64,000 bases of DNA from Polytrichum commune (taxonomy: Eukaryota > Streptophyta > Polytrichopsida > Polytrichales > Polytrichaceae): NCBI GenBank assembly GCA_950295325.1, contig OX485804.1:70177533-70241532 (forward strand), written 5' to 3'. Both the position numbers and the translations under genes were made by a program. The notes beneath the pieces were generated by a model, which worked only from the letters and a program-made list of their open reading frames with translations, made no database searches and was not told where the DNA came from. Position 1 is the stretch's first letter, and the number at the start of each line of letters is the position of its first letter. Shown here piece by piece: positions 33,118 through 51,399 of the stretch.

Positions 33118-34284
33118 GGTGTGTGGGGCCCAACTGTGTTTCTACACTCGGGGCCCGAAGTGCTACAACTGGGGCCCGAGTTGAGACACTTCAGGGTCCC
33201 AATTTCTACACTTGGGGCCCGAAGTGCTATAACTGGGGCCCCAGCTGAGACATTTCGAGGCCCCAGGTGTAGCAATTGGGGCCCCAATTCCTACACTCCG
33301 GGCCCGAAGTGCAACAACTGGGCCCGAGTAAAGACACTTCGGGGTCCCAATTTCTACACTCGGGGTCCCAAGTGCTACAACTGAGGCCCGAGTTGAGACA
33401 CTTCGGGGCCCCAATTTCTACACTCGGGGCCCAAAGTGCTACAACAACGGCCCGAGTTGAGACACTTCGCGGCCCCAGGTGTAGCACTTGGGACCCCAAT
33501 TCCTACACTCGGGGCCCGAACTGCTACAACTAGGGGCCCAATTCCTACACTCGGGGCCCGAACTGCTATGACTGAGGCCCCAGTTGAGACATTTTGGGGC
33601 CCCAGGTGTAGCAATTGGGGCCCCAATTACTACACTCCGGGCCTGAAGTGCAACAACTGGGCCCGAGTAAAGACACTTCGGGGTCCCAATTTCTACACTC
33701 GGGGCCCCAAGTGCTACAACTGAGGCCCAAGTTGAGACACTTCGGGGCCCCAATTTCTACACTCGCGGCCCAAAGTGCTACAACAAGGGCCCGAGTTGAG
33801 AGACTTCGCGGCCCCAGGTGTAGCACTTGGGGCCCCAATTCCTACACTCGGGGCCCGAACTGCTATAACTGAGGCCCCAGTTGAGACATTTCGGGGCCCC
33901 AGGTGTAGCAATTGGGGCCCCAATTACTACACTCCGGGCCCGAAGTGCAACAACTGGGCCCGAGTTGAGACACTTCGGGGTCCCAATTTCTACACTCGGG
34001 GCCCGAAGTGCTACAATTGGGGCCTGAGTTGAGACACTTCGCGGCCCCAGGTGTAGCATTTGGGGCCCCAATTCCTACACTCGGGGCATGAAGTGCTACA
34101 ACTAGGGCCCCAATTTCTACAGTCGGGGCCCGAAGTGCTACAATTAGGCCCCAATTCCTACACTCGGGGCCCGAAATGCTATAACTGGGGCCCCAATTGA
34201 GACATTTCAGGGCCCCAGTTGTAGCACTTGGGGCCCCAATTCCTACACTCGGGGCCTGAAGTCCTATTACTTGGGGCCCAAAGT
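33118..34284 (+). repeat. GGGGCCC minisatellite, left block
   Basis: GGGGCCC or GGGGCCCC recurs about every 21 bp. Linkers rotate among GAAGTGCTACAACT, GAGTTGAGACACTTC, AATTTCTACACTC and AGGTGTAGCACTT; several linkers are inverted complements of each other. Because the period is a multiple of three, long ORFs stay open on both strands; they are not genes. The block is cut at 34284 by the 16.1-kb element and continues in the same orientation at 50382. Confidence 0.95.
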
Positions 34285-34314
34285 AACACTATATTCGTTA
34301 ATCGGAGACTTTTG
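34285..34314 (+). repeat. Left terminal inverted repeat of the 16.1-kb element
   Basis: First 13 bases AACACTATATTCG are identical to the complement of the right end; three mismatches follow within 29 bp. The AAGT duplication lies directly outside. Confidence 0.85.
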
Positions 34315-34689
34315 AAAGTCTCAAAATAAAATATGCCCATAGTTTGGGATGCCAATATTGTGGGCATATGGAATGTTGGGAACATCAAGAACATGACAAT
34401 TTAAAAATTCGCACGTAAAGAATATTCCTAATACTAAAAATAGAAAATTGCAATTATAATGAAAACGTGAACTCCATGTGGAAAATAACAAGCGAATATA
34501 AAAAACAAATGGTTTATGTCATTATAGAGTTTGGGGTGCGCATCCCATAAGTAAGGTTCTTATGGTTTTGGATGGCACATCCCAAACGTATACCACAATG
34601 GAGTGTGACAAGTCTACTAAGTCTATTAAAAACCAAGACTACTAAGTACTAATGTTTTTTCCCGCCGTTAACTTTCACCTATGTTATGT

Positions 34690-37600
34690 TTACCCATCTC
34701 CATCTTCCGCTTCATATCCATTCTCGGCGTCATTTTCCGCAGCTGCAATACGTGCCAAGTTGTCTTTGGCAAAATGTATATGTTTTTGGGGGATGGTCAT
34801 TGCTTCTGTGTTGGAACCTTTGCGCGGCTTCCAAGCACAAAGTATAGTATCCGTGTTTATCCAAACCGGTGTGTACGCTGAGTCCACTGTCCACTTAAAA
34901 TTCTTTTTGGTGTCCCAACCTAAATAAGTGCGGAGCACGTTGTGGTCTTTAGTGCTTGGACGACAATATTCCACCTCAATTTGACGAAAGTTGGGGCTAG
35001 TTCGAACAAAATTGGGTGAAGACAATGCTTTTACCAACCAAATTGGCTTGGGATGCTCCTCATCCCCAGCTCGTACGAGGACCAAATACCCTTCATGGCA
35101 ATCAACACCTACACGAAACGACGGTGCCGGTCGATTGCGGGCAGGGCCAACGTAATGCTCGTCCATTGCGAACTCTTCACGAACGTCTCCATTGCTGAAA
35201 AACATAGTATCGGACTCGACAACCGTCAAACGACTTTGTGGCCAAAATCCTTGTGTCAAAGTCGTACGGGTGTCGCCACCAAGTGTCATCAAGGCTGAGC
35301 GAATGCGATCCCAATACGCGATCAACGGTTCATGGGTATTTCTAACACGTCTTGTGATGTCCTCCTCGCACAACTCTTTCCAATATTCAATGAATCCGGA
35401 TATGCCTTTGATGATTTCCGGCCCATTCCTCATGGGTTCGGGTTTGCAAGGCTTTGGTTCCCCATCCGGGACCAAACATTTCTCATCATTGTCTTGACGC
35501 CATACGAGTATACCATCATCCGGGCCCCAATTAGGAGATGTGCACAAAAGCTTGAATTGCATGGCCGGGAGACCATCGTCCCTCATATAAAATCGGAATT
35601 GTTGTGCTTTGGTATGCCCCACCAAACGGTCCCCTCCCTTCAACATGTATGGCTTGATGAAGGCCTTGAAATTTGGTACTTCCTCAATCAAGTGCGGAAT
35701 TACTGGCATATGGTCCAAATCCATATACGATTTCATAAGAAGAGGTATGGTTGGAAAATCTTCTTCATGCAACTTCATGCTCCACCGTCCGAATGATGCA
35801 TCAATGTCGTCGTGTGTATGTCCCACCATCAAGAAAGACACAAACACCTCCTTGAAGATTCCTTTCGCCACGAGCAATGACCAAAAACAAAATACGTATC
35901 GACATTTGTTGTCCTTCGCACAATTATCAAGTTGAACGTGGAGAGTTGGAGGCAATGGTTTTGCACAAATGGGCTCTCCGGGTGGTTCTGGCAATGACGA
36001 CATACAAACCTCCTTCCCCAAAAGCACTGCCTCATAAAGGGATGTGGTTCCACAACCATCAAAAAGTGCACGGGAAGAATGTACCGGTGGCTTCTCAAGA
36101 TCGCGCAACAGTTTTGCAAATGAACCCACCGTGTGGTTAGCATCCCCAGGGTAAAAATCCAAACCATAATGGGCATACTTTACGTCCCCATGGCCGTGGG
36201 CAATCATACCTGGAAAAAACAAACGATGCGTGACCAAAATAATCAAATAACCACTAAACGGATGTATGGAGTTGGACATTTGCCAAACACACCCAAGAAA
36301 ATTGGATAGACTTTAAACACGTAGTTGTGATTTCATACAAACCTGTGACAGCTACGGGCAACTTGAAGAGACCATCCGTGGCCTTTATTTTGCGTGCATA
36401 ACAAGGGCATGCGGTCTTGGCGTGGTCCATTTTATCATGGATGACTGTTAGAACCTCTGTGGGCCTCATTATGGATAGAGCACGATTCTTATAGTAATCT
36501 TGACGGTGTGCCTCTTGATTGTTGACATGTTCAATATATTTTTTCTGGTGTCTGGAATGAGATTCAGTGCCTATGGGGTGGGCGTCTCGAAGACCTTTGT
36601 ATTTTTCACACGTCGTACATCTAGCGAACTTGTCCCCGGGTCTTTTCAGAATGTATTCCGCAAACTGCTGGTTTTTAATCACACTCAACTTGGACAAAGA
36701 AATGGGCCCACATCCCGCTATGCGACCCACTTCATTGATGTCCGTTAAGATGTTCTTCCATTTTGTGCCCGTGGGCAACACCATTTGAACAACCTTCTCC
36801 CCTGACGACAATGTCCTCGTCTTGTGGGGCATTGCATCGGCCAATGGCACTATGATGGTGGATAGTGTCGCGGACGCTTGCAGTGTAGCCTCCCTAGGTT
36901 TCTTTGTGCCCGAGTTGCCATGAAATCGAGAGCGGCGACCCAACGATGAATATTTTCGAAACCTATAAAAGTCAGCCTTGGAGACGGCGTGGATGGTATA
37001 CCACGCTGTACAACACACATCAACATTCTCAAGTGTCACCACCTTATGCCCATGGGTATCAAGGTGCAAATTTCTGTGGACCTCGAGTTTCTTAGCCGAC
37101 CTCATACGAAAATCCGCAAGCCACATCTCTTGACGCAGAGATCTAATTTTCTCCCGCGGGAAAAATTGGCAACATTTCCTCGTGCAACAATCCTTGCCGG
37201 ACACTAGACGGATAGATTCGTCCCCCAAAAGCCGATCCCGTCGACGCTCCTTATCTCCGCGAAGCACACGGTTTGAATCATATCTACGGAGGCCTTTGCG
37301 AGGACGTGTTGTGGCCAACAAAGCTAATTGTGTTTGCTTATGCCGCCGCTCATGATCCCACAAACTCACTTCCTCATGTAGAACTCGACGAAGCGGCCAT
37401 CGACGCAAGGAAAATCTCCATGTCACCGGGAACTCTACCGGAAGCAAAGAGTTCAAGATGCACACGCCAACATCATCGAGACCTAGGGCGTTGGCATCGA
37501 CACAATCACGGGGATTGGAGTTTCTACATATACCATCTGCCACCGGGACACCAACCTCGTTGAGTAGAACGACATCAAGGCCAACCCATTGCTCCCTCCC

Positions 37601-37819
37601 GAAACCGGCACACAACGGAATGTCATCGTGGTCATCTCCGGAATGCAGAGATTGTTCGTGGACTTCCAAAGATTCATGGGAGGATGTATCCACAAACACC
37701 CCCCTCACGTTTGGTGAACCATTACTATCTGCCGACGGGGAAGACAGTTCACATTCAGCATCGGATGACGATGCATACGTCGACAACTCCAATGAACTAT
37801 CACTCACATGCAACGCCAT
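34690..37819 (-). CDS. DUF7869-type transposase-like protein (998 aa, 2 exons)
   Basis: Exon 1 is 37819-36343, the intron 36342-36210 (133 bp, GT..TTTTCCAG) and exon 2 36209-34690. They join in frame as ...PVAVTG-MIAHGHGD. ATG 37819 was chosen because the 59 codons upstream look non-coding. Residues 211-217 hold a cysteine cluster (CCTRKCC). A second cysteine pair is at C401/C404 (CTTCEKY). Exon 2 has the core typical of DUF7869 proteins: QLDNCAKDNKCRYVFCFW around residues 585-602 and VGHTHDDID around 621-629. Such proteins are repetitive in many plant and animal genomes and are thought to be transposase-related; the D/D/H residues here could form a metal site, which is inference. No palindrome copies lie within this gene. 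The frame is intact, so the copy may be recent. Confidence 0.8.
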
Positions 37820-38046
37820 ACAGCCTAGACCAACCACCAGGACATGATCAACCCAACCACCACCGCAATGCATACAAGAGAGGATAGAATATATGTGGAG
37901 ATAAATGGCCCAAAATTGACAAACAAATTTTGGTGCACCATTGGAGAACCTCACGCACAAAGACGAACGCGCGTCCCAAAAAAACGTTTTAAGCATACGT
38001 CTAGGTTGTTCACTAATGTAAACAATACATGGACAAAGAGGAGAAC

Positions 38047-38512
38047 ACTCGTTAGTCGTCCAGGAGGGCCCTGCTGTTCGGACCAGCGCCTGTCCACATA
38101 CAACCGACGACGAAATCAGAAATCCGAGAACGCCACATGCATTTACGAACGCGCATTCGTGACCTCAGTAACTTCTCCATGTACATCCGGCGGCCTTCGA
38201 GATCCCTCAAATGAGAGCACCCTGAGGAATATCGGTTTTGTAGGTCAAAGTACCATGTTGACTTAGGAACCTGCGCGATATACTATCACAAGAGAACACT
38301 TGTCCATACGCACAAAATTAGCAAATCTGCAGATGATGCCTGAATCAACTCCAACAATATTTTGAACACTGAGCACCTCCATATTGTGAATTTGATTATG
38401 TTGACTTTTGCGTACCTACCCATTTACGAACGGACGTTCGTAAATGGGTGCGACCCCGTGTTCACATCCTTCACGGACGAGCGATGAGCATATTTTTCTT
38501 GCTATTCTGTGT
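38047..38512 (+). repeat. Relic duplicate of the cargo exon 3 end and intron 3
   Basis: This tract aligns collinearly with 47424-48012. Shared landmarks in order: CGTTAGTCGT/CGTTAATCGT, GGAGGGCCCTGCTG, CCAGCGCC, a palindrome copy, TTTTGTAGG, GACTTAGGAA/GCCTTAGGAA, ACTATCAC, GATTATGTTGA, another palindrome followed by TGCGACCC, and GAGCAYATTTT. Coding frame is lost in this copy. It shows that the cargo region was once present upstream in another copy or was rearranged. Confidence 0.7.
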
Positions 38513-39216
38513 TCGTAAATTACTGCCATACTGATGTGCATGAATGAAGATGTGTTGCTGGATGCGTAGACAATAATGACATGTATTTACGAACGAACGT
38601 TCGTAAATTCCCGACCATCAGGTAACAATAGATACGGGTCAAATAAGTATGTATGATCCTCGAAGGCATATTTACGAACGCACGTTCGTAAATGACTGTC
38701 ATGGATTAAGTGCATGTGACTAACCATATGAGTACCTCAATCCAGAACATGCTCTCATGTGGGATTTACGAACGCACGTTCGTAAATTACCGACCAACAG
38801 GTACCAATAGACAAGGGTCAAATATATATGTATGAAACTCGAAGGCATATTTACGAACGCACGTTCGTAAATAAATGCCATGGATGATGTGCATGTGACT
38901 ATCCATGAGTAGCTCAATCCAAAACATGATCTCCTGTGGGATTTACGAACGCACGTTCGTAAATTACCGACCATCAGGTACCAATAGATAAGGGTCAAAT
39001 ATGTCTGCATGGTCCTCGAAGGCATATTTACGAACGCACGTTCGTAAATAACTGAGATGGATTACGTGCATGTGACTATCCATATGAGTAGCCCAATCCA
39101 GAACATGCTCTCATGTGGAATTTACGAACGCGCGTTCGTAAATCCTTGCCATGTCCAGGTCCGAATCGTTTGTCTAAACCTGAAGCTCTTCATCTTTACG
39201 AACGTGCGTTCGTAAA
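38423..39216. repeat. Palindrome cluster 1 (nine sites)
   Basis: Sites of 22 bp with core ACGAACGNNCGTTCGT and T/A-rich edges begin at 38423, 38586, 38671, 38765, 38850, 38942, 39027, 39121 and 39195. The central dinucleotide varies (GA, AA, CA, CG, TG). Each core has four CpGs arranged symmetrically. A degenerate site lies at 38142. The cluster sits 0.6-1.4 kb upstream of the transposase start. Confidence 0.95.
38586..39142 (+). repeat. ~178-bp tandem repeat carrying two palindromes per unit
   Basis: Corresponding sites are spaced 177-179 bp apart (38671, 38850, 39027 and 38765, 38942, 39121). Between palindromes the units share TGCATGTGACTA, CCAATCCAGAACATG and CTCGAAGGCATAT. About three units. 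Confidence 0.9.
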
Positions 39217-39229
39217 GTTCCGGTATTTA

Positions 39230-39480
39230 CGGCGGTATATGCGGTAGGTACAGCCTGTACTGTACCTGGGTGGTGTAGGGTTGGCGCACACGAAATGGCT
39301 TGAGCGCGTTCGGTGAGGTCTGTAGAGCGCACACTTGCATGTGCCGCTGAAAAGAGCTTTGTTGTGGGGGGAAGAGCTTTAAGTACTTCACCCCGCTGGT
39401 TCAAAATCCCTTGGATGCTTTTTAAAAAGCAGATTCCCGCCGCCTTCTTTGACCTAACAATCTCCCATTCCATCCATGCG
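39230..39480. other. Short non-repetitive tract inside the element
   Basis: An ORF of 99 codons exists on the minus strand (39473-39174) and reads as plausible protein in part (MEWEIVRSKKAAGICFLKS). A minus-strand TATA-like CTATTTATATAA lies at about 39484-39495, so a promoter and leader exon for the minus-strand transposase are possible. Unproven. Confidence 0.25.
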
Positions 39481-39599
39481 GAATTATATAAATAGCATTG
39501 TCATGTATGGAACATGCCTTGCATGCACGCCAACATATTGAAAATATATAAATCGGTTGCACACCTTAGTTGTGACCAAGGTCTCATCGAAATATATGT

Positions 39600-39605
39600 A
39601 TATAC

Positions 39606-39642
<37 letters not shown>

Positions 39643-39757
39643 ATGTCTAAATATGAAGATGGTTAACATTGAATATTTAATGATTTGCGACTAAGGTATG
39701 AAGTCCAAGTTAATTGACAATTGATGCCTAATAAAGTTATGAATGTCGAAGTCATAG

Positions 39758-39798
<41 letters not shown>

Positions 39799-39810
39799 CA
39801 ATGAGGTCAG
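39600..39810. repeat. TA and CA microsatellites
   Basis: An (AT)n run at about 39605-39640 and a second TA/CA run at about 39757-39802, separated by unique AT-rich sequence. Confidence 0.9.
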
Positions 39811-40778
39811 AGTGGCTAAGAAACATGTTGCGGACGCCCCTAAAATTATAGGTATCATATGTTTCACATCAAAAAATGACCGTAATATGGTCACCAAGTG
39901 CATGAATACAACTAAAAAATCGGGTTAATCCATAATGGCTTGCACTAGGGTAGATTGAGGACACTATGAACTAATTATACCTAATAATATATGTAAGTTA
40001 GGTCTTCTTTCAAATGGTATCTAGGTGTGAAAATAAGGAATTAAAATGGCATGAGTAGGAAGGATTAATCAATTTGTAATGCTGCATAGTATGATAGCGT
40101 AATGATCATTGAGACTTGAAACCATACTAGCTACCGTAACGTTGAATCATAGTTACAATTATTATGTGTTTGACGTCCTATTGGAAATTGAATTTTCGTC
40201 CACTTGTTGTAAGGGTACGGATACACATTGGTTAAATGTTTATTAGATCATTGGTGATATTTATAGTTGAATGCATTGTTCGATTGTTAGTTTAAGTTGA
40301 CACATGATTAAATGAGTTGAGGTCCTATTGGAAATAGACTTTTAGGGTTTGGGGAAATGCACTATTAATTTGGAATGGTGCATACAATAGTATGTACTTA
40401 CAATTAATATATGTTTTGCATCCTATGAGAAGGATGTGCATCATCATAGCTTAAAGTGTTGATATAAATTGAAGTCTTAAGACATGCATGTTATTATAAT
40501 AAGATCGTGGATTGTGTGATGAAATTTCACTCAGAACTATTAAGGTGAAAGTGGGAATATTTGAAATTTCACTTATCACTTAAACCAAAGTTTTATCTCA
40601 AATCTATTAATTTGGAATGTGAAATTGACAATTGCCATCATTATCAATTATTATAGTTGTTATGAACGGAATTAAGCATTCTCCATCCAACCAACATTGG
40701 TAGACCAATTTGACCTGCCCTCAGAAAACAACATGGCCACATATAAGAAAGGTTGGTAAGATAAAAAGATGCAAGGAT

Positions 40779-40850
40779 GTAGGGTTTAGGGTTTGCGGTT
40801 AGGGTTTAGGGTAAGGGTTTGGGGGTAGGGTTTAGGGGTTTAGGGTTTGT
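40779..40850 (+). repeat. Interstitial telomere-type repeats
   Basis: A degenerate run of TTTAGGG/TTAGGG units (AGGGTTTAGGGTTTGCGG...GGTTTAGGGTTTG). TTTAGGG is the common plant telomere repeat. It is internal to the 16.1-kb element, so it does not mark a chromosome end. Confidence 0.85.
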
Positions 40851-41439
40851 GAAAGTTGTGTATGTGGTATTTGGGTTTAGGTTTTAGATTGTTACTAGGA
40901 TACATTACACACACAAACAATATTGACTCCTCAAAAACCCTTGTAATTGCATTAACTTCATTCATCGCAAGCTCGTAGTTGATGCTAGCAAAATAGTTGA
41001 CCACTCCAGAAATGCATTAGTTCAAGCTAACACCTAATATTAGAACTTGAATTGACATCCTATCGTATAGCAACTCTGCGCAATCTCATATTATTATGAA
41101 TTCTTTTTTGCATGTAATATTTATTTGAGGAACCATCGAATTAATTGAAAGATATCTAGCTCTTACATAAACTATATTTTAAAACACCATATATATATCT
41201 TTGGGGGTGGATTCTACATTGACAACCTAGGGAGTGACATGCATTGTTTATTACGAATTAACTGAGCATATTTTCCTAAAATATGTTTACAAGGAATCCA
41301 AATGTAGAGGTACTAAGGAAATAAAACGAGTAAAATTCATGTATTTGAACTAAGCTTGTCAAGTTAATGCCTTAAACGCGTCCATTACATAAAAATATGT
41401 CAAAGCATGAGAATAACATGAAGGGTTCCAATATACAAC

Positions 41440-41635
41440 CATCTCCCATCTCCCATCGCATCCCATCCCATCCCATCCCTTCCCATCACCTCCCATACCA
41501 TCCCATCCCATCTCTCTCCCAACCCTAGCCAGTGGAGTTGTGCCACGTGGCAGGTGCTGGGAAACCCTAGCGGTGCACCTACCTCCCCGCGCCCCTTCCT
41601 CTTCTCCTCATTTGTCATTTCGAGGAGAGGAGGAG
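41440..41635 (+). promoter_or_regulatory. Promoter-like tract: CATCC repeats, G-box, telobox
   Basis: A run of CCCAT/CATCC units (41440-41515) is followed by a perfect G-box palindrome GCCACGTGGC (41542-41551), then AAACCCTAG (41562-41570, telobox type) and a C/T-rich stretch. In plants these motifs cluster in promoters of actively expressed genes. The cargo coding region begins 1.6 kb downstream. A transcription start is inferred, not seen. Confidence 0.4.
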
Positions 41636-41699
41636 CGGAGCGTTTAGAGAGCGAAGCTCTTGCTTTTTTTAGTCTTGAAGTTTTAAATTAGTTTTGTTG

Positions 41700-42030
41700 C
41701 AAGTTTTGAGAGATTTCAGATTGAGAGCTTGTGTGAAAGCTTTTGAGTTTGTGAAAGCTTGTGAGTTTGTGAAAGCTTTCAGTGTGAGAGTTTGTGAGTT
41801 TCAAAAGCTTGAGAGCTTGAGTAGGAAAGCTTCAGAGTTTCGGATTGAGAGCTTGAGGGTGATCTTTAGAAGCTTGAGAGTTTAAGGAAGCTTCAGAGTT
41901 GAAGCTTGAGAGTTTAAGGAAGCTTCAGAAGTGAAGCTTGAGAGTTTAGGGAAGCTTCAGAAGTGAAGCTTGAGAGTTTAGGGAAGCTTGAGAGTTTAGG
42001 GTTTGCTTAAGAGTTCAGAAGCTTGAGAGC
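41700..42030 (+). repeat. AAGCTT/GAGAGTTT short tandem repeats
   Basis: Imperfect repeats of GAAGCTTGAGAGTTTAGGGAAGCTTCAGA and shorter variants. It follows the promoter-like tract and could be part of a transcribed leader. Confidence 0.7.
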
Positions 42031-42514
42031 TACAAGGTTGTGAGTTTTGTGTACATAGGAGTATACTAGGGTTTGTATATAAGCTGTGAAGGCTTGAGGT
42101 CTGCATTAGAGAGTTATCTGAGTGTGCATTTGAAAGGCAATTGAGTGTGCAGTTGTGAGGATTTCTGGGATTTTCAGAAAGAGAAGAAGCAGGGATTGCA
42201 GTGTGCAGCATTTCAATGTAATTTGTTATCCTTTCCAACTCCTCTCACATTCTGAAAATGTTGCTTCTTGAATTCAATTTCTTTTGTTACATGCAATGTG
42301 AACTATCACTCTTTTCTTCATGTTTCATTCTGCATCTCATTCTGCATCTCAATTGCTTTATGATTGAAGAATTGCATCATTCTGACCAAAATTTTGCAGG
42401 CACGGCTGCAAGCAGAGTAACTAATAAGTGAGTTATATACATATACGTATATATACGTATTCGTATATACACGAATACATATATGTACGGACAGGGGATC
42501 CCAAAACCATCACA

Positions 42515-43146
42515 TATACGAACGCTCGTTCGTAAATGGACATACACTGCATACCCACCTCCATTTACGAACGCTCGTTCGTAAATGGACATACACTGCA
42601 TACCGAACCTCCATTTACGAACGTGCGTTCGTAAATACGCACTCCACGTTCTTTGAGATGATCTATATTTACGAACGCACGTTCGTAAATATACTCAAAA
42701 TATCACTCAGAAAGAACCCTAACTTAAATATGAACCTCTATGAATATCTAAAGAACAAATACAATTTTGCGAACACCAATAAGACAAATCACATGTACTT
42801 ACGAAAGATAAATCAACCAAATATCCGAAAAGATAGACCAAATGGACATACTTACGAACGCACGTTCGTAAATGAATCCAAACCTATAAAACCTATATCT
42901 TTTACGAACGATCGTTCGTAAAAATAACCAAATATATTACAAACACATTCATGACGAGTAGTCTCTTTGATCTTCATATCTTTTACGAACGCTCGTTCGT
43001 AAACTCAATACTAAAAATTTATATGATCTTGCAACCCCTCATTTACGAGCGAACGTTCGTAAATATAATTACATCAATTGCAAAGACGCATTAACACTGC
43101 GTAGTCTGTGGGATATGCATGTCACTTACGAACGTTCGTTCGTAAA
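42515..43146. repeat. Palindrome cluster 2 (nine sites), upstream of the cargo gene
   Basis: Sites start at 42515, 42564, 42614, 42668, 42851, 42901, 42982, 43042 and 43125; the last ends 29 bp before the chosen start codon. A splice-acceptor-like TTCTGTTGCAG directly precedes that ATG, so this cluster may lie in a 5' leader intron. Central dinucleotides here are CT, TG, CA, AT, AA and TT. Confidence 0.95.
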
Positions 43147-43174
43147 GTCACTAATTGTTTATATTCTGTTGCAG

Positions 43175-46100
43175 ATGGCAAGATCAAGCAGAAGCGCCAT
43201 TGAGATGTTCGCGGTGAAGGTCGATGGCCTCCCAGAGTCGGTGTTAGACGATAACGGCAACGACAACTATGTCCCCAAGGAAGACTTCATGGGGGAGTGG
43301 ATGGCACTGCCAGAGAAGATCGGGGACGGCCTCTTCTGCATGCGCTTCACCTACGAGCTGGAGACAAGACCGGACCAGCCCGAACAGTGGGTTCAAATGA
43401 AGACGTGGGAGATAGAGTCCATAGAGGCCCAGCGGGAGTATGTAATTTTGGACATGAAGAACAAGAAGGATCGTATCAACCTCTTGTTACATTTTCAGAA
43501 AAATACCTTCTCCTACCAATACGCCACCAATAACGTAGCGGAAGATGCCAAGCACTTCGACCTGGACGGCCTCTTCTCCAAATATGCGTTGAGCCCATAC
43601 TGGACTGCAAGGAAATTGAACGCCCTGGCATTGAACATCTCCAAATACAACAGTGTGGTCACTGAGGCAAACAAGAAGAAGAAGAGCCCCAGGAAACCAT
43701 CCACATCAGGGGCAGGAGGATCTAGAAGTGCACCCAGGCCTGTGCCTTCCGCTAGCAGGGCGACGGAGGGCCCCAGTAGACACTCCACGCCATCGAAGAG
43801 GACAAGGGAGGAGATGGAGAAATCGGGAGTAACGGAGACCGCAGAGGTGACCTCGCTTGTCGTAATGCCCACCCCCTTGAAAAAGGGTGAGAACCCTGAC
43901 GCTGTGAAGGCCACGAGGATCCTTCGAGACTTCAACAACTACTCGAAGGATTGCTGGCCCATGGGACGCCACTTCACATTCAACGTGGACTGCTTCAAGT
44001 GCGAGATGTCCCCCAACAAATGGGTGGTTCGCTCTCGCGAAAGCGGTGGTGTGAAGTGGCAGATAAATAATCTAATGAACAACGTCAAGTGGGACATGCA
44101 GACCGTCTGCGTCATGCCGAAGGGGCTGACATCCCGTCCGACGGAGAAGGACTGGCCACGGATCCAGAATGGAGAGTTCTGGATCATAGACGGCCAACAC
44201 AGCTTGGAGGCGTCCCAAATAATTCTCAAGGACGACAACTTCCAGCATGAGCTGAAGGAGGACTTGCGCTACTGGAAGGCGTTCTTGGTGTGGTCGGACG
44301 ATTGGGACAAGCTGCGGAAGATATCCACCTTCCTCAACTCCGGCAACAAAATCAAGGCCTTCGAGGCGTCGTGGGCAGCCAACATAGTGGCTGCAAGGGA
44401 CGTCTGGGTCGCCCACGGGTGCCCCCCTAAAGAAAGGGAGAACGCGAAGACGCCGTCTCCACAATGGAAGGTGAGTTTACGAACGAACGTTCGTAAATAT
44501 CTTTGACATTCAAATTTTCAAGTTCTTTGACATTCAAACTTACGAACGTGCGTTCGTATTTTGTGCGTTACTGATGTTTTTCTTGCTACAGGCATTCTGC
44601 GACGCGATGGTGGACAAGTTCTCCTCCATCGACATGAAGTCTACAACAACCAAGTCTGTCCTGGAGCTCAAGGGTGAGCTCCGCCTCATCTGTTGCAACA
44701 GGGACACTTGGGAGTTGTGGACACAATTTTTTGATGCGCACAGCTCGGGCGATCTGGTCAACCCCGACACCGAGGAGAAGTACAGCGCGGAGAAGACCGG
44801 GGAGGCCCCTCCACTACTGAGGGAGTTCTTCAGGTCCCTTCAAGGGTTAACAGAGTCCGAGTTGCAGAGGTGCGCGGTGCATCTTCTTGGGAACACTGTG
44901 GGAAGAACCATCCCATACCCGAAGATATTTTTGAAGAGGCCAAGACACAAGCCCGGCACGTATTCCATCAAGGAATGGTGCGAACACCGCAAGCTGAAGA
45001 CTGCTGCAATGAGGGAGTTGAGCGCCCTAATACCAGAGTACGCACTCATCCTAGCCGACGGGGACATTAATTGGGCCAGCTGGAAGATGTTCAAGGTCGA
45101 CTACAACATCTCCGGACCCTCAATGCGTTGTCTTGTCAAGGAGCACGCCTCCATTTTGAAGCAGAAGGGGAACAAGAGGACAAAGAAAACCGAGACGGAT
45201 CCCCAAGAGGTGGAGCAATACAGAAGCTTTTTGACGCGGAAGAGGTTGGCCACATTCGAAGGAGTGGCCAGATTTTGTCTGTTGACAAAAGGAGTGGAGA
45301 GGGTGACATTTTCCAAGTGGGACCGGACCATGAGCAGGGCCGAGGTGAGGGAGGATCGACGGGGGTGCCCATTTGCCCTGATCGATTTCAGGGGGATCCC
45401 CGGTGCGTCGAGGCAGGGGGGGAAGGACATACCTTTCTACGACCCCTTCATGGCCAAGTTCAAGGAGCACAAGTCTCCGGACATGAGGGAGCCTCACGTT
45501 TGGCTGTGGATAGTCGAGCAGGAGAAGCTCTCTGCTGTAGTCGACCTGTACGAGAAGTCGATCAAATTTGAGTACAGCATCTTCCACAGCACTTACGTGC
45601 CCGCCAAGACGGAAGGGATCGTGGCCATCAACGAGGCCAGGGGGAACAAACAGGTGGGGGCGGTCAGCCTCGTCTTCTTGACGTACAACGCGCTGCGGAA
45701 TGGGCGAGCCCCTGTCAAGGCGAACACTACGTTCAAGAAGATCTACAGCATCCCCCATCCCCCTCCCAAGGATCTGCTGCAGGAGACCTTGTACACTGTC
45801 TTCCCGGCGATGGAACTCAGGTTGGAGTTCTACGTCTCCGTTTTGCAGAGCGTGGCAATAAGCGGAGAGACCGTGTACAACGTTTGTGGCGGCAGCAAGT
45901 TCATGTACGCTGCGATGGTAAGCTCTCCAACTAATATTTACGAACGCTCGTTCGTAAAGTTCACCTCAACTTGTCTTGGGTTTGATGACATTGTTTCTCG
46001 TCGTTGATGTTTACGAACGCACGTTCGTATTTTCTAACGTATTTGCTTGAATCTCAGATGCTGGGGCTGGTCGTCAACAGCTTCATTGAAGCCATCGACG

Positions 46101-48877
46101 AGGAGGACTTCCACGTGCACAGGGCGAAGGCCTCCACGATGGACCTGGAGGACATGTCCCTCCCGAGGACGGACATCAACATGCCCGTCGACGAAGGCAT
46201 GCCCGCCATGGAGACGGACGACGACGAGCCCGCGCCCTCCTACAACGTCGAGGCGATCCTCCGATCCTTGGACGTCACTCCTCTCCGCATTTTGGCGCCG
46301 TCGGGAAATCCATCCGACGTGCAAGGGACTCCGGGTGGATACACGGGGTCGTCGGCGGGGACAACCCAAGATGTCCTCCCCGCGAGAACGTCTGGAGCGG
46401 AGGCATTCGGCACTCCCGGGGGATGCTCGACATCCGTGTCGCCCAGGCCGATCGTGGTTCCCAAGATGGAGAACCTCGACCTTCTGGACCAACGGTCCCG
46501 ACCGACGTTGGACCAGTACCGCAACACGAGGCGGAGGATGAAGAAGACCCCCTACGTGGAGCTGCCTCCGGGGGCAATCATCGAGGTCTCCGATGAGGAC
46601 GAGGGCGACATGGAGATCATGGTCGAGCTGGGGGTAGACTTCGACAAGAACAAGCGGGTCAAGGAGGAGGCGTTGTCCGTCGCCGAGCTTAACGCCAAGC
46701 TCGAGCAAAAGATGAAGGAGGACATGGCGAAGGCGGCAGAGGAGAATGCCAAGAAAATGTTCGCAATTCAGGAGGAGCTGAGGCAGTCGAACGAGAAGAC
46801 GGACGCCATCCTCGCCATGCTCCAGCGTATGCAGAGCTTCTCGGCGCCCCCCCAGCCGGCCTACCCCTTCACTGGAGGATACCCCTCCCAATCCCCTCCA
46901 CCGGGCATGTTCACCGGAGGGCCTTCCCGCCAGCAGGCGCCCCACCCCACGCCTGTTGGCACTCCTCCGCCACCAGAGGTTCCCTCGACCACCTCCCACG
47001 ATGCTGTGGCGGCGGCCATCCAGGAGGACGAGGATTTACGAACGCGCGTTCGTGAATCTTCAGGTCCTCCAGTCCTCACCCCTCCCCCTTCAAGGGTAGG
47101 ACTGCCCTCATACACCGATGCATCGTCTTTCACCGTCGTCCCCAGGGTAGTAGACAGACATGGCGATGACTCTGCGCGACACACTGACATGGTCATTGTG
47201 GAGGACACGCAGGGGAGCCCCAATGACGCACCAGGGGTGCATGGGATGGACGTGGAAGAAACCCATGCGGCGTGGATGGAGGATGTCAGGATGGACGCGC
47301 TCGACCTGGGCGCCGAGGAAGAAGACGCGCTGCGCATCCAGGCGACACAGGCCTCTCAACCGGAGCGTGAGGCAGAGGCCATGGAGACAGAGGCGGCTGC
47401 AGCTGTGGAGGTTACGAACGCGCGTTCGTTAATCGTTGAGGAGGGACCTGCTGCTCGGTCCAGCGCCGCTACCCCTCCCCCCGATGACGAGGTAACTCTC
47501 CTCTGAGAATACCATTTTTTAACGAACGCGCGTTCGTAACCTCTCTAACATCGCGATGTTTTTATCTTCATCGACATCCAGTGGCCTTGCGAGAGCCCTC
47601 TTCAGCGGTCCCCCTTAGGGCCGAACAGTTTTGTAGGACACGGCATCATTTTGCCTTAGGAAAATGTGATAGACTATCACGTGAGAAATGTAAATATTCA
47701 ACGGATTAATATATGAGCCTATGTTATCTGCATCGCGTTGCTTCAAATTCTCTGCCCTCGACCCCTTCTCGTATGTTGTATATGTTGATGAGATTATGTT
47801 GATTCTTGCATACCCACCTCATTCGCGAACGCTCGTTCGTGAAAGGCTGCGACCCACTGTCCACCTCATTCGCGAACGACCGCTCGTAAATGTACGTGTA
47901 GCCGCGCTCACGAACGAGCGCTCGTAAATGATGCGCACCGCCCCCGCAGCCTTCATTCACGAACGCTTGTTCGCAAGTGTGCCCTTGAGCACATTTTCCT
48001 TGCACTCTCCTCACTTCCTCGTCTTTCCCCATAATGCACCGTCTTCATTTTCTACGCAAAATTTCATTATTGGATCATAGAATTAAACTAGTCGCGTTGT
48101 TCATCACAGGACCCCCCGGAGATTGGTCGCAACCCCTCTACCAGTGGACCTCCCACCCGGAACAAACCTTTCATCGTTTTTGACCTCAACGGGGTGTTGT
48201 GTCACACCCAACACATCCCAAGGGTCCCCACGCGTCCCTTCCGTCACCCCGACGAAAGGGACTACGACGGCGAGCTCGACACCCTCATTAACCGCAAGGC
48301 TGTCCGCGCCCGTCCCGGCTTGCGTGACTTCCTTCGCGAGGTGGTCGAGTTCGCTCACGTCATTGTGTGGAGCTCCATGGTCATGGAGAACACCGAGCCC
48401 ATCGTCCACTTCTTATTCCGTGATCTCCCGAGCCCTTGCCTCGTCCTCGGCCAAGAGGACTGCGACGAGCTGCTCGACGAGAAAGGTCAACCGGTGCCCA
48501 AGTTTGGCGGTCGGGGCGGAGGACAACAGTTCCTCAAGGTCCTCCGCTCGAGACTCTGGCGAGGCGTCCCCCGTCTGCAAGGGACGCCGCACGGGTGGTG
48601 GCCGACTCCAGAGAACACCGTCCTCATCGACGACAGCCCCACCAAGAGCGTCTTGAACCCCCCGGGCAACGTCATCTTCCCGGACACTTGGACCGGCGAT
48701 AGGCAAGACACATTTTTGGTCGATAGGCTAGCCCCCTACCTTAGAAGGCTCGTGCTCCACGCCGGTAGCATCCCATTTTTTGTTAGGTCCAACCCCTTCG
48801 GCAATGCGGCGCTAAGCCCCCGCGATAATGTATTCAAGAGCATCATGAGGCTCGCCAAACTCAATAAATTGATTTGA
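43175..48877 (+). CDS. Cargo protein: ParB/DGQHR-like, methyltransferase-like, coiled coil, FCP1-like
   Basis: Exons 43175-44470, 44592-45917, 46058-47491 and 48110-48877 join in phase 0 at GT..AG sites to give 1607 aa. ATG 43175 is used because it follows a CAG acceptor and begins good coding sequence. Residues 339-343 are DGQHS, with FLNSGNKIKAFEA at about 386-398, as in the ParB/DGQHR fold. Residues about 690-880 resemble a beta-type DNA methyltransferase: CPFALIDFRGIPGA (DFRG 697-700 where DPPY/W is usual), VWLWIVEQ (735-742) and GETVYNVCGGSKFMYAAM (857-874), continuing MLGL across the splice. A charged coiled coil covers about 1082-1136. The C-terminus is FCP1-like. The methyltransferase is probably catalytically altered. 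Joining exon 4 is likely but not certain; a short alternative last exon (47582-47659) would end the protein before it. Confidence 0.65.
44476..44560. repeat. Two palindromes in cargo intron 1
   Basis: Sites at 44476-44497 and 44539-44560 fill much of the 121-bp intron (44471-44591). The first begins five bases after the GTGAG donor. Confidence 0.95.
45937..46031. repeat. Two palindromes in cargo intron 2
   Basis: Sites at 45937-45958 and 46010-46031 within the 140-bp intron (45918-46057). Same two-site arrangement as intron 1. Confidence 0.95.
47035..47056. repeat. Palindrome inside coding exon 3 (first)
   Basis: Core ACGAACGCGCGTTCGT in frame, encoding DLRTRVRES. The last bases are changed to GTGAA; the plain palindrome would also be open in this frame. 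Confidence 0.9.
47411..47432. repeat. Palindrome inside coding exon 3 (second)
   Basis: Core ACGAACGCGCGTTCGT in frame, encoding VTNARSLI. Edges are GTT and TAA rather than TTT and AAA, so the outer palindrome is reduced here. Confidence 0.9.
47519..47977. repeat. Five palindromes in cargo intron 3
   Basis: Sites at 47519, 47822, 47869, 47907 and 47956 within 47492-48109. The last four are more diverged (for example CGCGAACG and CGCTCGTAA variants). Confidence 0.85.
47582..47659 (+). CDS. Alternative short last exon of the cargo gene
   Basis: After the acceptor CATCCAG, phase-0 reading gives WPCESPLQRSPLGPNSF and stops at TAG 47657-47659. Using it would release the ParB/methyltransferase part without the FCP1-like domain. 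The relic copy near 38190 has CATCCGG at this place, so its acceptor is destroyed. Speculative. Confidence 0.3.
   Translation, partial: WPCESPLQRSPLGPNSFVGHGIILP
48110..48877 (+). CDS. FCP1/SCP-type HAD phosphatase-like domain exon
   Basis: The 255-residue exon after TTCATCACAG reads KPFIVFDLNGVLCHT, VRARPGLRDFLREV, HVIVWSSM, TVLIDDSPTKSV and ends LAKLNKLI. These are the HAD motifs in order: motif I normally DxDxT/V, here D-L-N-G-V with the second Asp replaced by Asn; motif II Ser in VWSS; motif IV DD. FCP1-homology proteins act on phosphoserine in nuclear proteins; many plant relatives also have DLNG, so activity is uncertain. There is no in-exon ATG before the domain, which supports splicing to an upstream exon. 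It is the fourth phase-0 unit of the cargo gene. Confidence 0.75.
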   Translation, partial: DPPEIGRNPSTSGPPTRNKPFIVFDLNGVLCHTQHIPRVPTRPFRHPDERDYDGELDTLINRKAVRARPGLRDFLREVVEFAHVIVWSSMVMENTEPIVHFLFRDLPSPCLVLGQEDCDELLDEKGQPVPKFGGRGGGQQFLKVLRSRLWRGVPRLQGTPHGWWPTPENTVLIDDSPTKSVLNPPGNVIFPDTWTGDRQDTFLVDRLAPYLRRLVLHAGSIPFFVRSNPFGNAALSPRDNVFKSIMRLAKLNKLI

Positions 48878-48988
48878 AATGCCTCCATGTCTTTGCTTGT
48901 ATCATGTGGTTCACATTTACTAATGCTTGCTTCGTTTTTGGATGTCTTTTGTTGTTGTGATTGTTGTTGTTGTTGTTCTTGCCCATAG

Positions 48989-49989
48989 TCTGCCCCCATA
49001 TGCGACGCCCCTGTGGTCGACGGCCCTTCCCGTCTCCTCTCGCCCCCTGCCTCCCCTTCCCGCGACGTCACGGGCTTCCAAATGCCATCCCTCTACCAGT
49101 TCTCGGCGGTCGACGCGGCCTCGGCCGTGGATTACTCCCGCGACGTCGGCATCGACGACGGCGTCGTCAACAGCCCGCCCCCACCACTTGTCGCCCGCGC
49201 CTACGCCCCGTCGCCCTCCCCCCTCTCCAAGGAGAAACGGACGCTCGTTCGTTTGGGACACCTCTCGCCCTCGAGGGACGACGCCGTCGCTCGTCGCGGG
49301 CCGAGCCGGCGTCTCCGCATGGAAGGCCCCCGTTGCCACACCTCCCCCGCCGACTCCGTTCCTCCCCCCGCAACGTCCTCCGCGATCGTGGGCCCTCCAC
49401 GCCTCGACTCCCCCCCGCCATCCAACATAATTGCAATAGTTCCATCGGCTCCGGATGCTCCCGTCGACGCCCCCCTCGTTCCCACCGTTCCCCGCATGGA
49501 CGTCCCCAAAGCCAAGGTGCCCTCCTCAACCCTGAACCCCTTTCTCGCTTTTGCTTTCCTTGTCTTCCGTTTGCGTGCCGTTCTCTTTACGAGCGCCCAT
49601 CCCAAACCGCCCTCATTATTTTCCCCACTCCATTCCTATTCTTATCTTCCTATGACGTTGTTTCGCAGGTGGTTACCCGCTCGCTTGGTGCCCGGCCCTC
49701 CTCCACGTCCTCCTTGGATAGGCACGCCCTCAAGGCCGCATCTTCCGAGTCCGATCGTTGTCTGGCCCTCCGGAGAAGCGCAAGACGTTCCCTTTCGCAA
49801 ACACCCTCGCATTCTACTTATAATACCACCTCTTACAATTCGGGAGCGCGTCCTGAAACATGCAAGAACGACACATATTCCTGTCCAGGCAACACACAAG
49901 GATACAGTCGTGGGCCTGAGATTTTTAGAGCCATGGAGGCCGCCAAAAAAAAGGGCTTAGCCGCAAAAAAAAAAAATGGGTCGGACTAG
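48989..49989 (+). CDS. Pro/Ser/Arg-rich coding exons at the right end of the element
   Basis: Exon 48989-49516 follows a T-rich tract and GCCCATAG and reads SAPICDAPVVDGPSRLL onward, rich in Pro/Ser/Ala. A donor AAG/GTGCCC at 49516 and acceptor TTTCGCAG at 49668 join it in phase 0 to 49669-49989 (VVTRSLGARPSSTSSLDR...AAKKKNGSD, stop). The junction explains why two overlapping frames each look coding over half of this region. Disordered and basic. No domain recognised. It may be a further alternative 3' part of the cargo gene or an independent gene whose first exon I cannot place. A degenerate palindrome is at 49234-49255. Confidence 0.4.
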
Positions 49990-50351
49990 TGTGACGTCTA
50001 GAAGCGTACTAGTGGGACGGACTCCCTAAATGGGCTTAGGTGTAGAACATATTTAAGTGCTTACTTTCTATGCTATTCCAAGTTACTCAAGACATTGATG
50101 GTATTTCCATTATAATTGTATTTCAATCCCAATTAATTCATTCAACTTCCATTCATTCTTCGCACCTTCCCTTCCATTCATAACGAGTTGTGATTTCATA
50201 CGCAACTATTTTCATGTATGCCTCACATTTTTGTTCACTTCCATGCCTTTATGTATAATAATAGTAGCATACCATTATACATATGGAATTTTTAGTCGTC
50301 ATTACTGGTCCAATTTTTAAAGGTGCATCCTTATATAGTCTCATAATCAAC

Positions 50352-50381
50352 AAAAAGTCTCCAAATACCGAATATAGTGTT
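50352..50381 (-). repeat. Right terminal inverted repeat of the 16.1-kb element
   Basis: Plus strand ends CGAATATAGTGTT, the exact complement of the left end. AAGT follows directly and then the minisatellite resumes with GCTACAACTGGGGCC. Confidence 0.85.
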
Positions 50382-51386
50382 AAGTGCTACAACTGGGGCC
50401 CCAATTCCTACACTCGAGGCCCGAAGTGCCATAACTGGGGCCCGAGTTGAGACATTTAGGGGCCCCAGGTGTAGCAATCTGGGCCCCAATTCCTACACTT
50501 GGGCATGAAGTGCTACAACTGGGGACCCAATTCCTACACTCGGAGCCCGAAGTGCTATAACTGGGGCCCCAGTTGACACATTTCGGGACCCCAGGTGTAG
50601 CAATTGGGGCCCAAATTCCTACACTCGGGGCATGAAGTGCAACAACTGGGCCCGAGTAAAGACACTTCGGGGTCCCAATTTCTACACTCGGGGCCCCAAG
50701 TGCTACAACTGAGGCCCGAGTTGAGACACTTCGGGGCCCCAATTTCTACACTCGGGGCCCAAAGTGCTACAACAACGGCCCGAGTTGAGACACTTCGCGG
50801 CCCCAGGTGTAGCACTTGGGGCCCCAATTCCTACACTCGGGGCCCGAAGTGCTACAACTGGGGACCCAATTCCCACACTCGGAGCCCGAAGTGCTATAAC
50901 TGGGGCCCCAATTGACACATTTCGCGGCCCTAGGTGTAGCAATTGGGGCCCCAATTCCTACACTCGGGGCATGAAGTGCTACAACTTGGGCCCGAGTTGA
51001 GACACTTCAGAGCCTCAGTTGTAGCACTTCGGGCCCCAATTTCTACACTAGGGGCCCCAAGTGCTACAACTGGGGCCCGAGTTGAGACACTTCGGGGCCC
51101 CAGGTGTAGCACTTGGGGCCCCAATTCCTACACTCAGGGCCCGAAGTGCTACAATTTGGGACCCAATTCCTACACTCGGAGCCCGAAGTGCTATAACTGG
51201 GGCCCCAATTCCTACACTCGGGGCTCGAAGTGCTACAACTGGGGACCCAATTCCTACACTCAGAGCCCGAAGTGCTATAACTGGGGCCCTAGTTGACACA
51301 TTTCGGGGCCCCAGGTGTAGCAATTGGGGCCCGAAGTGCTACAACTGGGGCCCGAGTAGAGACACTTCGGGGCCCCAATTCCTACA
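50382..51386 (+). repeat. GGGGCCC minisatellite, right block
   Basis: Same unit types and orientation as 33118-34284, so it is the second half of one interrupted array of about 2.2 kb. It ends next to TATATATATTAAT (51388-51400), which also occurs just left of the array at 33040-33052. Confidence 0.95.
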
Positions 51387-51399
51387 TTATATATATTAA

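Follow-up and report, generated by a model that had tools for sequence, protein, structure and literature searches.

The window, that is, the whole 64,000-nucleotide stretch of Polytrichum commune DNA that was analysed, contains a complete DNA transposon of ~16.1 kb (34285..50381), delimited by 29-bp terminal inverted repeats (TIRs) with three mismatches (AACACTATATTCG......GGAGACTTTT). A ParB/methyltransferase-like gene on the forward strand and a DUF7869 gene on the reverse strand both lie within this single TIR pair. Homology to four other copies of the element stops at 34283–34285 on the left and 50381–50385 on the right. With the element ends drawn at AACAC/GTGTT, 4-bp target site duplications were read in four of the five copies with both flanks (AAGT, AGTG, ATGT and TCTT); in the window AAGT occupies 34281–34284 and 50382–50385. 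The fifth copy (L051/L052) showed no duplication (ACAT versus AAGT). An assignment to CACTA (En/Spm) elements, considered for the CACTA-like end, was dropped, because CACTA target duplications are 2–3 bp and those observed are 4 bp. Sola2 transposons are described as producing 4-bp target site duplications (PMC3627910), so by the length of its duplications the element would fit the Sola group. The GGGGCCC arrays at 33130–34284 and 50382–51393 were also considered as element ends, and the comparison with the four other copies places both outside. They form one tandem GGGGCCC-rich array (periods of 21, 42 and 64 bp), already in place when the transposon inserted and split it. Searches of the host genome (407.8 Mb, 64 contigs) scored at least 22 full-length copies of the segment 36200–43174 (6975 bp), including that of the window, out of 1336 candidates; these were 97–100% identical.

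The transposase-like exon (34690..36312, reverse strand) carries the DUF7869 domain (PF25273) at residues 118–258 (Pfam E 4e-40, 137.9 bits, cutoff 26), the only domain found in the opposite-strand protein. An open frame at 36254..37834 on the same strand (MDHAKT region) is a candidate for the upstream coding part of this gene. On the forward strand, the sequence predicts a spliced gene of four exons with a 1607-residue open frame and three GT-AG introns, all of phase 0. An earlier sequence-only reading had placed a ParB and DNA-methyltransferase-like fusion at 43175..47491; the gene is real, and its range extends further, to an in-frame fourth exon at 48110..48877. Exon 1 (43175..44470) encodes a PH-like part (residues ~24–166), a disordered linker (171–229) and a ParB/Srx-like part (~267–396). 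Exon 2 (44592..45917) encodes a helical region (~20–220) followed by a part resembling beta-class methyltransferases (~223–442). Exon 3 (46058..47491) begins with the probable end of the Rossmann-like fold (MLGLVVNSFIEAIDE) and continues with low-complexity and coiled-coil-like sequence; a similar exon is present in three other loci (L074, L078 and L082). Exon 4, which is predicted, encodes an FCP1/NIF-like phosphatase domain (PF03031, E 2.7e-16, 60.1 bits, cutoff 21.8). The catalytic motif of FCP1/NIF phosphatases is DxDx(T/V); it is absent from exon 4, which has DLNGV, with Asn for the second Asp. Homologues of exon 4 lie downstream of the gene in all four loci fetched from two other protein clades (see below), with 62.5% identity in L079 and L082 and 43–44% in L080 and L081, and DLNGV is present in each.

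The number of homologous proteins rose from four in a first search to 95 after alignment-based searches (longest contigs 0.8–20 kb), every one without a name or labelled 'hypothetical protein'. The host genome has at least 95 copies of exon 2 (those scored among 1162 candidates), 84–100% identical; 11 of them, including the window, share the top score, and some carry stop codons. These homologues and genomic copies argue that the gene is not a chance open frame. Of the 95, eight were retrieved for dN/dS and seven of them used (L059, in which part of exon 1 is missing, was left out). The ratios were 0.01–0.11 for the ParB-like part, 0.09–0.29 for the methyltransferase-like part, 0.08–0.27 for the PH-like part and 0.09–0.25 for the helical region; against the three divergent copies they were 0.01–0.04 (ParB-like) and 0.09–0.12 (methyltransferase-like), dS exceeding 1 in some comparisons so that the lowest ratios are rough. 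Judged from these substitution patterns, the gene is under purifying selection.

The folds of the two central parts were assessed from AF2 models built on separate alignments of exon 1 (pLDDT 71.8) and exon 2 (pLDDT 81.5), since a combined alignment misplaced exon 2 fragments onto exon 1. Structural matches of the exon 1 model point to the ParB/Srx-type fold that had been read from DGQHS, a motif found as described at residues 339–343. The exon 2 model matched methyltransferase Rossmann-like folds: in the comparison with VIA, all 50 among the matches listed are amino-methyltransferases of the beta class or the MT-A70 group, and the fold matches include MTA1 and METTL3-METTL14 complexes. C5-cytosine enzymes also appear in the Foldseek matches, lower in the list. 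The best Foldseek E-values for ParB-like and methyltransferase-like matches were modest (1.9e-3 and 7e-3). A profile search against PDB sequences gave no relevant match to either part, and the folds are therefore assigned from structure prediction; Pfam, NCBIfam and PHROGs gave weak matches only (GmrSD_N, E 0.097; N-SET, E 0.15), as did the DGQHS region of the homologue P0002 (DUF6551, E 0.03; DUF1015, E 0.043). In the viral structure library nothing fell below E 0.001; the best match (E 5.2e-3) is unnamed, and the named ones are methyltransferases mixed with unrelated proteins. Viral, phage or prokaryotic relatives were not found in IMG/VR (three alignments), in GTDB contigs or in phage records (tblastn with P0002), the IMG/VR and GTDB scans being seeded by two short peptide patterns each and insensitive to distant relatives. 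Overall, the models support the reading of the protein as a ParB-like plus methyltransferase-like fusion.

Both parts depart from their active counterparts in the motifs that matter for catalysis or nucleotide binding. CTP-clamp ParB proteins bind nucleotide with GERRxRA; this motif does not occur in the ParB-like part, where 34 of 37 sequences have DGQHS (one GGQHS, one DGQHN, one gap). Beta-class N6A/N4C methyltransferases have a catalytic (D/N/S)PP(Y/F/W) and the SAM motif FxGxG. The beta-class order of motifs proposed from the sequence agrees with the model, in which the FALID strand (exon 2 residues 261–265) precedes the TVYNVC strand (427–432); the WLW strand is at residues 304–306, and the motif I-like stretch, with NVCGGSK in exon 2, runs on across the exon 2/3 junction (NVCGGSKFMYAAM continued by MLG). 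The replacement of DPPY by DFRG, also pointed out from the sequence, holds throughout the family: in the window the position reads DFRGIP, and DFR is present in 44 of 45 homologues, DFC in the remaining one. No homologue of the 45 has (D/N/S)PP(Y/F/W) at the catalytic position; PPY, PPW or PPF occur elsewhere in three proteins. FxGxG is likewise not seen: of 40 homologues that extend over motif I, 38 have GG[ST]K there, with Lys for the second Gly. If the protein were an active N6A or N4C methyltransferase marking the element that encodes it, as has been proposed for algal ParB-methyltransferase transposon proteins including Sola1-1_Ec32, the fold, the motif order and the purifying selection would be accounted for, but these two replacements make such activity quite unlikely.

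The replacement of DPPY is fixed across clades of only ~34% identity, and this speaks for a new use of the methyltransferase-like part rather than decay. It is extremely improbable that the gene is no more than a passenger in decay, with structural matches that reflect common folds. The alteration of both enzyme motifs, the modest Foldseek values and the absence of a PDB relative in sequence profiles would suit such a passenger; dN/dS of 0.01–0.29 for the two domains in seven copies, the maintenance of the family at this divergence and the uniform class of the 50 VIA matches listed for exon 2 would not.

The element contains many copies of a palindrome, TACGAACGNNCGTTCGTA, which consists of inverted arms around a free 2-bp centre. 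With up to two mismatches allowed, 27 sites were found in the window, all within 38144–47926, and none in 100 shuffles. Ten lie 5' of the transposase gene (38144..39214; starts at 38144, 38425, 38588, 38673, 38767, 38852, 38944, 39029, 39123 and 39197) and nine 5' of the ParB/methyltransferase-like gene (42517..43144; starts at 42517, 42566, 42616, 42670, 42853, 42903, 42984, 43044 and 43127). Each intron holds two: intron 1 (44471..44591) at 44478–44495 and 44541–44558, intron 2 (45918..46057) at 45939–45956 and 46012–46029, and intron 3 (47492..48109) at 47521 and 47909, together with decayed ones near 47825, 47872 and 47959. None of the 27 falls in exons 1 or 2. The remaining two are in the coding sequence of exon 3 (47037–47054 and 47413–47430), where their translations are LRTRVRE and VTNARS; it looks as though the motif had invaded the low-complexity part of the protein. 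Between the left end of the element and the first site lie 3.9 kb, and between the last site and the right end 2.5 kb; further decayed palindromes occur near 37963 and 49237, the latter (one changed arm base, outside the 27) 1.1 kb inside the right end. The host genome holds 4680 exact copies of TACGAACGNNCGTTCGTA and none of a reversed control.

The two 5' clusters are separated by 3.3 kb of mostly AT-rich, palindrome-free sequence (39215–42516). This contains a short TAGGGTT-like repeat run (40780–40849), which we take to resemble plant telomere sequence. The stretch 39194–39889 is similar to sequence flanking another copy (L044; 77% over 707 columns) and is perhaps a nested insertion.

Conservation of the sites was followed in the four most diverged copies fetched (L057, L058, L059 and L060; exons 80–84% identical). 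The arms were 92, 93, 100 and 95% identical to those of the window (L059 covers 56 arm positions), the centre dinucleotides 67, 67, 75 and 46%, and other noncoding positions 64, 64, 64 and 60%. Palindromes may anchor the alignment of copies, and the centre positions serve as an internal control against such anchoring. The contrast was smaller in the nearer copies L061–L064 (exons 92–98%), with 95–99% for arms and 90–96% for other noncoding positions; in L064 the values were 95 versus 94%, and in L062 six of 12 palindromes were still exact.

The host genome carries three lineages of the protein, ~33–46% identical across clades. Many of the database homologues end in intron read-through, and the tails differ by clade: YERSFV or FTNARS in the clade of the window (I), FTDARP, YGRASV or LRPRGRK in that of P0002 (II), and VWVDRPKL, FGSIDPN or LGRSTQT in that of P0004 (III). 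Assuming the design seen in the window, and given that a peptide does not fix its DNA, the palindromes deduced from these tails are ACGAACG-NN-CGTTCGT (I), ACGGACG-NN-CGTCCGT or ACGGCCG-NN-CGGCCGT (II) and TGGGTCG-NN-CGACCCA (III), all with a CGNNCG core. The two new palindromes occur 9731 (TTTGGGTCGNNCGACCCAAA) and 1147 (TTTACGGACGNNCGTCCGTAAA) times in the host genome and their reversed controls not at all; the counts of the three palindromes are not comparable, because the patterns differ in length. The variant ACGGCCG-NN-CGGCCGT had no exact copy within the loci scanned.

Five clusters of the new palindromes, picked for a spacing like that of the two introns, were fetched, and all five contain a gene of the matching clade (L074 and L076, 69% identical to P0002; L075, L077 and L078, 66–75% to P0004). 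The exact palindromes in each of these loci are all of the matching type. All five loci have own-type palindromes in the intron separating exon 1 from exon 2, and four have them right after exon 2 as well, where L076 has imperfect ones only. A further 3-kb locus from the type II search (L073) has exon 1 of the gene, 73% identical to P0002. A diagnostic peptide, by patterns written after the tails had been seen, is present in 45 of the 95 homologues and agrees with the clade in all 45 (19 I, 15 II, 11 III); the other 50 have none. By these sequence comparisons, each protein clade is associated with its own type of palindrome. The proteins were scanned for residues that are invariant within a clade and differ among all three; the 14 such positions in exon 1 and seven in exon 2 formed no clear cluster, clade III being represented by two sequences only for exon 2.

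Palindrome arrays also occur with no gene nearby: eight overlapping loci at about four places (L065–L072) have palindromes of type III, frequently spaced by 32 or 64 bp, and no gene within 1.5 kb, and are possibly non-autonomous elements. At another place (L001–L008, C1:639146-643273, and C1:640646-646097), 33 type I palindromes lie in 5.4 kb, with a transposase fragment of 63% identity and no ParB-like gene in the stretch to 643273; from its sequence this may be either a related element or an array sharing the motif of the window.

The inverted symmetry of the sites and their location in introns and 5' regions could also suggest RNA hairpins (acting in splicing, termination or as small RNA) or short mobile palindromes. 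A free 2-bp centre is too short for a normal RNA loop, and neither variant sits well with sites that can be aligned at matching positions of diverged copies and recur in intron 1 in all five distant-clade loci, which makes this explanation very unlikely. The sites may instead belong to the transposase or to a host factor, with the ParB-like protein acting elsewhere; ten of the 27 do lie 5' of the transposase gene. Their 5' and intronic positions, 3.9 and 2.5 kb inside the ends, argue that they are not transposase end sites, and none of the 27 is near an end. Moreover, it was intron sequence of the ParB-like genes in other clades that led to the other two palindromes, and a single host factor would leave three private motifs within one genome unexplained. 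We therefore consider this alternative unlikely.

The matched changes of the two arms, the free 2-bp centre, the recurrence of sites in the same introns and the private type of each clade are as expected if the element itself encodes a protein that recognises specific sites as a dimer. A private palindrome in each lineage suggests a system of docking sites by which the transposon controls or unsilences itself. We thus propose, with moderate confidence, that the gene encodes the accessory protein of a two-gene DNA transposon and that protein and palindromes form a self-encoded binding system acting in anti-silencing, in the manner of VANC, or as an activator. The ParB-like part and the helical region that follows it would bind the palindromes as a dimer. 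The methyltransferase-like part would no longer methylate, and may serve to bind DNA or a cofactor or to dimerise the protein. The protein would cover noncoding sequence of the element that encodes it and thereby keep that element unsilenced and transcribed, as VANC does for VANDAL, and the FCP1-like domain perhaps acts on RNA polymerase II. The agreement between clade and motif would also be expected if whole elements shared a common descent and their repeats were homogenised, and a different protein could be the one that reads the palindromes.

A more specific, parS-like version of the binding system is speculative and, to us, rather doubtful. Here the protein would load at its private 5' and intron palindromes and spread as a clamp against DNA methylation, the methyltransferase-like and FCP1-like modules would read the site and license RNA polymerase II, and lineages would change palindrome and protein together, so that orthogonal systems coexist in the genome. 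The clamp is weakened by the replacement of the usual arginines by DGQHS.

The pairing of ParB and methyltransferase domains in transposon proteins is already known from descriptions of algal elements. As far as the literature searched extends, three features are new: the loss of DPPY is fixed, a phosphatase-like exon forms the C terminus, and one genome houses three palindrome systems, each private to its lineage. The search, which covered few subscription journals and no bioRxiv preprints, found no report of palindromes tied to ParB-like transposon proteins. There are few worked examples of transposons that escape silencing without waking the whole genome, VANDAL/VANC being one. Three co-resident lineages with private, sharply defined palindromes in thousands make the co-evolution of protein and site directly testable by swaps. 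They offer three candidate DNA-binding systems, possibly orthogonal, and suggest a specific, testable function for the ParB-methyltransferase proteins of algal transposons.

Several known systems share features with the one proposed. The sites of bacterial ParB/Noc proteins (parS/NBS) are palindromic; the likeness lies in the predicted fold of the N-terminal nucleotide-binding domain and in the palindromes, whereas the present protein has DGQHS for GERRxRA, belongs to a eukaryotic transposon and is fused to other domains. METTL14 and MTA9 have kept the amino-methyltransferase fold with a changed catalytic motif. The predicted fold with its altered motif resembles this situation, here with DFR and with no active partner known. 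Several lineages of fungal DNA transposons are described as having captured TET/JBP dioxygenases, thought to counter methylation-based silencing (PMC12730594); unlike this enzymatic removal of methylcytosine, motif-directed binding is proposed here. In Ectocarpus, the 21.5-kb DNA transposon Sola1-1_Ec32 is reported to encode, on the strand opposite to the transposase, an accessory protein with ParB-like and amino-methyltransferase domains, the latter predicted to make 4mC or 6mA (PMC12477816, where Iyer et al. 2011 and Petroll et al. 2025 are given as sources for such proteins in transposons of green and red algae). Compared by description, the two systems agree in that a large DNA transposon carries a single gene for the two domains, on the strand opposite to the transposase; they differ in the loss of DPPY here, and the account of Sola1-1_Ec32 available to us mentions neither palindromes nor a phosphatase domain. 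VANC21 and VANC6 of Arabidopsis VANDAL transposons are described as recognising family-specific short motifs that are dense in noncoding parts, including introns (PMC5735166, PMC10398659). The VANC21 motif, the 9-bp YAGTATTAY, is arrayed in one orientation (PMC5735166), unlike the palindromes with a free 2-bp centre found here. In motif pattern, the moss element and the VANDAL transposons are alike: a transposon-encoded protein is accompanied by family-specific arrays of motifs in noncoding sequence and introns, and these change between families.
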